Assembly (NCBI GenBank): GCA_002897115.2
Contig: BCIH01000009.1
Span: 10,019 to 74,018 of the forward strand
Origin: Prototheca cutis
Lineage: Eukaryota > Chlorophyta > Trebouxiophyceae > Chlorellales > Chlorellaceae
DNA: 64,000 bases
Reading direction: 5' to 3'
Part shown: positions 2,978 to 4,694 of the stretch, piece by piece
How the letters are laid out: each line of letters opens with the position of its first letter
Numbering within the stretch: position 1 is the first letter of the stretch
Translations under genes and position numbers: made by a program
The notes under the pieces: generated by a model
Databases searched by the model: none
Told to the model about the DNA's origin: nothing
What the model saw: the letters and a program-made list of their open reading frames with translations, nothing else

Positions 2978-3780
2978 TCAGCCGCCCCCTCGCAGTGCAA
3001 GGACCAGGTGCAGCACCGATCCACCCTCAATGTTGTAGTCCCTTGCAAGTTTCTCGTCGTTCATCTGCTTCCCCGCAAAGATAAGTCTGCAATGACAAGG
3101 GAAGAACGTTTACAGGAGTTACTGCAGTGGAGCAGAGGAGCTTGTGGAGTCATTCAAGTAGCCCGGCAGAAGCTTGGCTCAGGGCAGAATCAAACANCCC
3201 CCCTCCCCCGCCACTCACCGCTGCTGCACGGGAGGGATACCCTCACGCTCTTCGACCCGCTCCTTGATCCTCGCAATGGAGTCGCCAGGCTCGATGTCAA
3301 TCTCAATCTCCTTGCCGGTAAGCGTCTTCACCTGCGCACGTGGGTGTGGCAAGGGCCCCAAGCTCGCATTGCTGTCGCTGCACACACTCAAGCCCAGTTG
3401 TTGCGTGCCCGGACATTTCCGTGCACTCAACCAACACGAGCACCTTGATCATCATGCCTCCACGGAGTCTGGGGACCCAGCAATAGGTGGCGCCAGTCGT
3501 GAGTGGTGTCTGGGCGTCAAAGACCTCCTGGTGCCCTTTGTAGATCCGCAGGCCGGCCAGGTCCATGCCAGTCATGCCCCCCAGAGCATCCATCAGGCAT
3601 CCTGGAAAAGGGGTGGCGCGAGTCCACGTGGGTGGATCCAAAGTTCCAGCGGAAATCAATGGGCCTGAGCAGCTCATGCGGGTGGGAGGGGTTTTCCCCG
3701 AGCAACTCACCAACGGTGGTTCCATCCTCCATTGTCACCGCCATGGACGTTTCACTTGCAATCCTAGCTGTGACCAACAT
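2978..3780 (-). CDS. RUB1: Divergent ubiquitin-like domain fused to NEDD8/RUB1; complement(join(2978..3086,3219..3331,3444..3601,3711..3780))
   Basis: A 149-residue precursor. Residues 73-149 are unmistakable NEDD8 (RUB1), the modifier of cullins: [52 protein letters not shown], with one extra Gly after the mature GG. In frame upstream is a 72-residue domain ending in PRLRGG, directly before the second moiety's Met-Met. It has the ubiquitin layout: a first strand, then [11 protein letters not shown] as the second strand, a helix, LRIYKGHQ where ubiquitin has LIFAGKQL, and the LRGG end. Little else of ubiquitin survives, and it has a single lysine. Arabidopsis RUB1 and RUB2 are ubiquitin-RUB fusions, so this is that architecture with a drifted first half. 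Isopeptidase cleavage after each GG would release both parts (inference). The start at 3780 is the only ATG that keeps the first strand; all four exons join in phase. Confidence 0.9.
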
Positions 3781-4162
3781 TCTAGAGATAGACAAGGGAA
3801 CCGGTACGATCAAAAGAGCGGCAGAACTCGTTCCTTTACCCGCACGGTGCGTCCCCGACCGAAGCGATCACTCTTTTGGGTACCCAGAGTTCGCACGGCC
3901 CAGGTTGGATGCAGCGAAAGGACCTCCTTAAACTGAAAAATGTAAAGTGCTCGATATCGATGGGAGCGCCCGGCTCTGCCCCACAAGTCCCCGCTCGCGT
4001 CTGTGATCTCCGATCCTCATCTCACACCCTTACTGCCCGCAGCATTGTTCCCACGGACGGCCCTCCATGAAAATCGGTCTCATTCCACAATATTTGGTGC
4101 GGTTCGCACCTGTCGAGGATAATAATTCATCAATGCATGGTTGTGTAAGTGATTAGGAGACC
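3781..4162. promoter_or_regulatory. Shared divergent promoter region of UBL-NEDD8 and CKS1
   Basis: 382 bases between two start codons pointing away from each other. No clear TATA box or repeat was seen, and no gene is supported here. Confidence 0.5.
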
Positions 4163-4694
4163 ATGTCTGTGGTGAACAACGGAATTAATTACAGGTGCGA
4201 GGGGGGTGTCGGGGACCTAGGCCGGTGGCGCACATGACTAAGTCGCGGGAATCGCGTCCGGCGGATTGCAGAGGCCCATTTGTGATCGCAAAGCTCCACA
4301 TGTAATGTTACGATGCTTGGATGTCTTGCCATGTCGTGGTTGGGATCTGGGCGGGACGCAGTGTTTGTCACCATGGTGGGCGGCAGTGGGGCTGTGCGAC
4401 TGCCTGTGATCCGACACTCCAACCCTCTCCCAAGCGAACCCCCCCCCCCCGCATTGCAGTGAGCGTTATTACGACGATGTGTACGAATACAGGCATGTAG
4501 TTCTGCCGGCTGAGGTCGCAAAGCGGCTGCCAAAGGGCCGGCTATTGACCGAGGCGGAGTGGCGGGCTCTGGGGGTGCAGCAATCCCGTGGCTGGATTCA
4601 CTACACCATTCACCGGCCGGAGCCACACATTATGCTGTTCCGGCGGCCAAAGGGTTATGGCACGGCCGCAGCTGTGGTGCCTCCTGCGCAATAG
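4163..4694 (+). CDS. CKS1: Cyclin-dependent kinase regulatory subunit CKS1; join(4163..4194,4460..4694)
   Basis: An 88-residue CKS protein, a docking subunit that binds CDK-cyclin complexes and phosphorylated substrates in the cell cycle. Visible family signatures are [31 protein letters not shown] and [13 protein letters not shown], the last holding the HxPEPH hinge. The first exon is only 32 bases ([10 protein letters not shown] + AG) and splices in phase to T GAG CGT, restoring the conserved YSE. The length is normal for the family (about 80-115 residues). The intron carries a poly-C stretch just before its acceptor. It is expressed divergently from the UBL-NEDD8 gene. Confidence 0.96.

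Follow-up and report, generated by a model that had tools for sequence, protein, structure and literature searches.

A NEDD8 fusion gene with a divergent first domain

The minus strand of the window, a 64,000-nucleotide stretch of the Prototheca cutis genome, carries at positions 3780-2978 a fusion gene which consists of 4 exons separated by GT-AG introns and encodes 149 residues. The predicted precursor starts with a 72-residue ubiquitin-like (UBL) domain with a VPRLRGG end, followed by a 77-residue NEDD8 with an ALRGGG end. Exon 1 (3711..3780, 70 nt) contains the start codon, codons 1 to 23 of the UBL domain and 1 base of its codon 24, and is followed by intron 1 (3602..3710, 109 nt, GTGAGT...CAG), which interrupts codon 24 in phase 1. 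Exon 2 (3444..3601) encodes the remainder of the domain, from the rest of codon 24 to Gly72 (3456..3601, ending in RLRGG), and, directly after the LRGG, the first 4 codons of NEDD8, MMIK (3444..3455). The gene continues with intron 2 (3332..3443, 112 nt, phase 0, GTGCTC...CAG), exon 3 (3219..3331), which encodes NEDD8 sequence matching PF00240, intron 3 (3087..3218, 132 nt, containing one N, GTGAGT...CAG), and exon 4 (2978..3086), which encodes the end of NEDD8 with ALRGGG and includes the stop codon. The coordinates, the NEDD8 identity of the second half, the 72-residue first half with its single lysine (K45), and the RLRGG/MMIK junction are all as described in an earlier note on this DNA.

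A Pfam scan of the whole protein recognized the ubiquitin family (1.2e-26) at residues 75-145, i.e., in the second half only, and residues 1-72 scanned alone gave no match up to E 10. The NEDD8 half is identical to Chlorella variabilis NEDD8 at 67/76 positions, and the NEDD8 hallmarks N51 and A72 as well as the GG end are visible in its sequence.

The intergenic stretch between the fusion gene and its divergent upstream neighbor (3781..4162) contains no ubiquitin match. The neighbor is a CKS (cyclin-dependent kinase subunit) gene (4163-4694, plus strand), with an exon at 4410-4694 (E 1.6e-34) and a start codon placed by eye at 4163, leaving approximately 380 bases between the start codons of the 2 genes. 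An exon of a DEAD-box helicase lies downstream of the fusion gene. Scans of the window with Rfam (at the gathering threshold) and for tRNAs were empty. An upstream ubiquitin exon was considered and rejected, the contig showing no ubiquitin match besides the NEDD8 exons.

Ubiquitin-type genes and neddylation components of the genome

The genome comprises 19.9 Mb in 23 contigs. No match to the light-harvesting family PF00504 was found in it, a search in which only a cyanobacterium matched among the controls, suggesting a non-photosynthetic green alga. The 2 NEDD8 exons in the window represent the only NEDD8 found in the genome. A second NEDD8 gene was rejected, since the NEDD8 query otherwise matched polyubiquitin (2 places), Ub-L40 (1 place, named by eye) and 1 marginal sequence (E 0.44). 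Polyubiquitin looks normal where readable, being interrupted by a run of N, and the ubiquitin of Ub-L40 is 72/76 identical to ubiquitin. By contrast, the partner in the sole S27a gene found (G000:C1:844051-844386, minus strand) has drifted: it is identical to ubiquitin at 34/76 positions and ends in LRLLGG, while still being recognized by Pfam with 54 bits. Therefore, 2 of the 3 single-carrier fusions found (NEDD8, S27a, and L40) have drifted.

Cullin neddylation domains were identified at 3 loci, 2 of them over the cut-off and displaying RVMK or RIMK, which we take to be the acceptor motif. A DCN1-type domain is also present, along with C12 proteases at 2 loci and C48 matches at 3 loci, of which 2 are weak. 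The E2_bind domain of UBA3 had no match in the genome, with the control being equally silent. A further ubiquitin-like domain, presumably FUBI-like as judged by eye, is encoded at G000:C5:454251-454358 (plus strand) and has a GRLRGG end, after which an in-frame, weakly ubiquitin-like stretch follows; a match to S30 lies elsewhere (C2:1596518).

Conservation of the fusion in related sequences

A search with residues 1-80 of the precursor yielded 3 candidates and 1 match, P0001 (E 2.4e-17). P0001 reads as genomic DNA in which the introns have been retained, namely exon 1, a 99-nt in-frame intron (by count), exon 2, and an intron after MMIK. With the in-frame intron removed, 43/72 residues match the window domain without a gap; in exon 1, 17/23 residues match. 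The second sequence, P0122, was found with a joined query and covers exon 2 only, with 32/48 matching residues. Wherever covered, the visible intron boundaries agree in all 3 sequences (window, P0001, and P0122; by eye), and the apparent intron after MMIK is likewise present in both P0001 and P0122. Because the 2 sequences encode the same domain with introns in the same places (by eye), the fusion gene, predicted as a 4-exon model, is on this comparison real and not a chance reading. The fusion, the possible absence of which from relatives had been raised in the earlier note, is thus present in both. The di-glycine immediately precedes the NEDD8 methionine, as LRGG/MMIK, in 3/3 sequences, in line with the direct succession of LRGG and the next Met claimed previously.

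These data bear on the possibility that exons 1 and 2 are not spliced to NEDD8 and that the true ubiquitin exon resides elsewhere. The exon joining is indeed predicted from genomic DNA, and the P0001 and P0122 readings still contain introns. However, the LRGG and the first NEDD8 codons are located within the same exon 2, the boundaries are the same in P0001 and P0122, and the contig (as genomic DNA) offers no candidate for the alternative first exon restoring ubiquitin that the earlier note had envisaged, its ubiquitin matches being confined to the NEDD8 exons. We consider an artefact of the gene model extremely unlikely.

Of the 48 columns of the domain covered in all 3 sequences, 24 show the same residue throughout, among them the L-R-x-Y, E-V-F-D, and V-P-R-L-R-G-G motifs; the last of these, the 7-residue tail, is the longest stretch of the domain that is invariant in 3/3 sequences. 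In a neutral simulation started from the window codons, which ignores indels, changes as conservative as those observed against P0001 together with the lack of a stop codon were obtained in 45/3000 runs (0.015). Taken singly, the conservativeness was reached in 0.043, the lack of stops in 0.39, and the retention of all 6 tail residues in 0.053 of the runs. The simulation provides modest evidence of constraint on the domain.

Retained and lost features of the first domain

The domain shares 14 identities with ubiquitin over a 76-column alignment and does not qualify as an N-terminal plain ubiquitin. Positions were placed by the window-ubiquitin alignment, which is ungapped to residue 55 and anchored at the C-terminus thereafter; other sequence pairs place the gaps differently, and positions 42-54 are therefore the least certain. 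In the placement used, all 7 ubiquitin lysine positions are changed in both full-length sequences (window and P0001), with K6 replaced by Arg (a placement-dependent assignment). The window domain contains a single lysine, and P0001 and the P0122 piece contain none. L8 (Ala), I44 (Tyr), E51 (Phe), and R54 are also lost, whereas R42, T66, V70, R72, L73, R74, G75, and G76 are retained in both full-length sequences. Accordingly, the claim that nothing of the Ile44 patch remains holds for L8A and I44Y but is slightly too strong in this placement, since V70 is kept.

A search of the PDB with the 72 residues gave 5 matches with E values from 0.37 to 1, none of which is named ubiquitin. A structure model of P0001 with the intron still translated, based on an alignment with the window exon pieces and P0122, had a pLDDT of 33. 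The LRGG end proposed in the earlier note is present, whereas the beta-grasp pattern proposed along with it is inferential, the profile signal outside the tail being weak.

Descent from ubiquitin

Intron 1 is located after 70 nt, in phase 1 of codon 24, which is exactly the position of the Ub-L40 intron in the same genome, and exon 1 has the same length as that of Ub-L40 (both by eye). In the other ubiquitin-type genes of the genome, the introns are located elsewhere, at codon 10 in polyubiquitin and at codons 8 and 33 in S27a (by eye). As intron 1 coincides with that of Ub-L40 in both codon and phase, we read the domain as a decayed ubiquitin. Profile comparison matched the domain to ubiquitin/NEDD8 with a probability of 64-70 in local and 46 in global mode when the tail was included; without the last 6 columns (the tail), the probability dropped to <1%, and column shuffles scored as well in 57/300 local and 1/300 global comparisons. 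With single sequences devoid of the tail (n = 5000), shuffles as good as the window domain were obtained at frequencies of 0.036 against ubiquitin and 0.0016 against NEDD8; for P0001, the respective values were 0.0014 and 0.0002. Gene structure is a stronger clue to the descent of the domain than its sequence, which by itself is a thin one.

Which partner is usual in this position was assessed by a survey of fusions comprising the best 120 of 1377 matches plus P0001 (121 in total), a selection which favors plain-ubiquitin repeats. Ten of the 121 were left out, as no NEDD8 start was recognized by pattern, so that 111 fusions were counted. Plain ubiquitin (at least 67/76 identical) directly precedes NEDD8 in 89/111 of these fusions, drawn from the best 120 of 1377 matches. 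Among the other 22, 17 look by eye as if they were truncated, contained an insertion or a retained intron, or repeated NEDD8; the remaining 5 (P0032, P0121, P0083, P0096, and P0075; from the same best 120 of 1377) carry a substituted partner. In green algae, the arrangement is Ub-Ub-NEDD8 in Chlorella variabilis, C. vulgaris, Micractinium, Nannochloris, and Volvox, and Ub-NEDD8 in Trebouxia and Haematococcus. Given the survey and the green-algal Ub-(Ub-)NEDD8 arrangements, the ancestral partner in the present fusion was probably plain ubiquitin. The suggestion that the ubiquitin partner has drifted is thus probably correct, considering the occupation of the ubiquitin position, the junction common with Chlorella and Volvox, and the intron position and phase of Ub-L40.

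Alternatively, ubiquitin in front of NEDD8 could have been replaced by another UBL, as Pfam sees no ubiquitin in the domain and its similarity to ubiquitin outside the tail is weak. Such a replacement appears improbable, however: the codon-24 phase-1 intron is common to the domain and Ub-L40, the alignment of the window domain with ubiquitin is gap-free to residue 55, and a genome search up to E 10 did not reveal a second copy of the domain.

Putative carrier role of the first domain

We consider it probable that NEDD8 is made from this locus, the only precursor gene found for it in the genome, and that the first 72 residues of the precursor are a carrier descended from ubiquitin which no longer serves as ubiquitin and is cut off after Gly72. 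The domain would be translated first and, by folding, may help NEDD8 expression in a chaperone-like manner. A ubiquitin-fusion-processing protease of the UCH or USP type would then cleave after Gly72, freeing NEDD8, the last glycine of which could be trimmed by a UCH or a DEN1-type enzyme. No longer homogenized with polyubiquitin and Ub-L40, this copy would have been free to drift except for the cleavage tail and the core. The ubiquitin functions would have disappeared from the domain because other genes, polyubiquitin and Ub-L40, supply ubiquitin. The fold of the domain, its cleavage, the chaperone-like role and the fate of the freed domain belong to the proposed mechanism and are inferred. 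As a choice between a spacer or carrier and a new UBL, the carrier is favored by the kept tail, the lost lysines and Ile44, the drift of S27a in the same genome, and the S27a precedents in the literature. Its tail is what the processing protease needs. Against the carrier stand the weak ubiquitin signal outside the tail and the low confidence of both structure models, and the invariance of EVFD in 3/3 sequences, which a mere spacer need not keep, could point to a specific function.

Cleavage itself deserves consideration. In Chlamydomonas ubiquitin, changes at E51 or R72 are reported to reduce cleavage by USP2 (PMC3215745). With R72 kept and position 51 occupied by Phe in the placement used, ordinary cleavage is not assured, and NEDD8 might work, or wait, as an uncleaved 2-domain protein if the change at position 51 impairs USP cleavage. 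We regard this as very unlikely, given that the 7-residue tail is the longest invariant stretch in 3/3 sequences.

The complete conjugation end makes it possible that the freed 72-residue protein is a new modifier, activated and conjugated through its own RLRGG end. Besides the complete RLRGG, the equivalents of R42 and R72 are present in both full-length sequences, EVFD, LR-x-Y, and PRLRGG are invariant in 3/3, the lysine counts are 0 (P0001), 0 (P0122 piece), and 1 (window), and only 45/3000 neutral runs (0.015) were as conservative without a stop. However, the need for cleavage alone would also keep the tail, a low lysine count means little where the genome is GC-rich, neither Ile44 nor E51 has been retained, the domain is not known to have a dedicated E1 or target, and the simulation reached the conservativeness alone in 0.043 and all 6 tail residues in 0.053 of the runs, so that we view a new modifier as rather unlikely. 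A domain nearly without lysines could hardly be extended into chains and would be a single-copy tag; somewhat less likely still is the specific version in which the ubiquitin that once carried NEDD8 in this gene gave rise to a lineage-specific, nearly lysine-free modifier, released in equal amount to NEDD8 and conjugated as a single tag unable to form ordinary chains.

Ubiquitin is among the most conserved proteins, and a copy reduced to little but the cleavage tail constitutes a natural experiment that bears on which features a ubiquitin needs in order to deliver its cargo as a carrier, the cargo here being the modifier NEDD8. In the same genome, a second carrier, that of S27a, has drifted, whereas Ub-L40 has not. 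The decayed carrier may show the real requirement for a carrier ubiquitin, and 2 old questions become testable: the reason for the fusion of ubiquitin to other proteins, and the origin of new ubiquitin-like modifiers.

Comparison with known systems

A literature search covering titles and the beginnings of abstracts among the papers listed, with most subscription journals outside it, brought up no NEDD8 fusion with an unrecognizable ubiquitin partner. In a Brachypodium Ub-NEDD8 gene, the ubiquitin part is reported to lack 22 residues, apparently through a deletion (PMC3968751). Milder drift of the partner was observed in P0121 from Marchantia paleacea, P0083, P0096, and P0075, with 49, 52, 57, and 59 of 76 residues identical to ubiquitin, respectively. 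The Ulva mutabilis protein P0032 contains a 74-residue Pfam-silent domain (77-150) with an RLRGG end between ubiquitin and NEDD8; unlike in the window fusion, plain ubiquitin comes first. When P0032 was modelled alone, residues 73-150 remained below 50 pLDDT. The heavily gapped, low-scoring alignment of its domain with the window domain has 18 identities and displays no close likeness beyond the tail, so that P0032 would be an independent case, based on one gene model.

Carriers of S27a provide a precedent for such drift. Divergent UbS27a is reported from many protists and from Caenorhabditis, and in Giardia the ubiquitin fold of UbS27a is said to be kept and a chaperone role may persist (PMC10457151). 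As in these divergent carriers of Giardia, Apicomplexa, and Caenorhabditis (PMC10457151), the position has been kept in the window fusion while the ubiquitin sequence has been lost, but the cargo is NEDD8 rather than a ribosomal protein, and the 14 ubiquitin identities are fewer than the 34 in the S27a partner of its own genome. The S27a ubiquitin of Guillardia is reported to form a separate branch (PMC6332867). FUBI-S30 (PMC10611586) likewise has a ubiquitin-like leader cut from a cargo, although the cargo differs.

In overall design, the window fusion resembles the plant and green-algal Ub-NEDD8 precursors, RUB1/RUB2, for example CrRUB1 of Chlamydomonas (PMC3215745) and the Ub-Ub-NEDD8 proteins of Chlorella, Micractinium, and Volvox, in which a ubiquitin-type domain is likewise joined head-to-tail with NEDD8 and a short extension lies past the GG of NEDD8. 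Its 11-residue junction is the same as in Chlorella and Volvox. Unlike in Ub-NEDD8 precursors, its first domain is 72 residues long, Pfam-silent, and devoid of the 7 lysines and Ile44.
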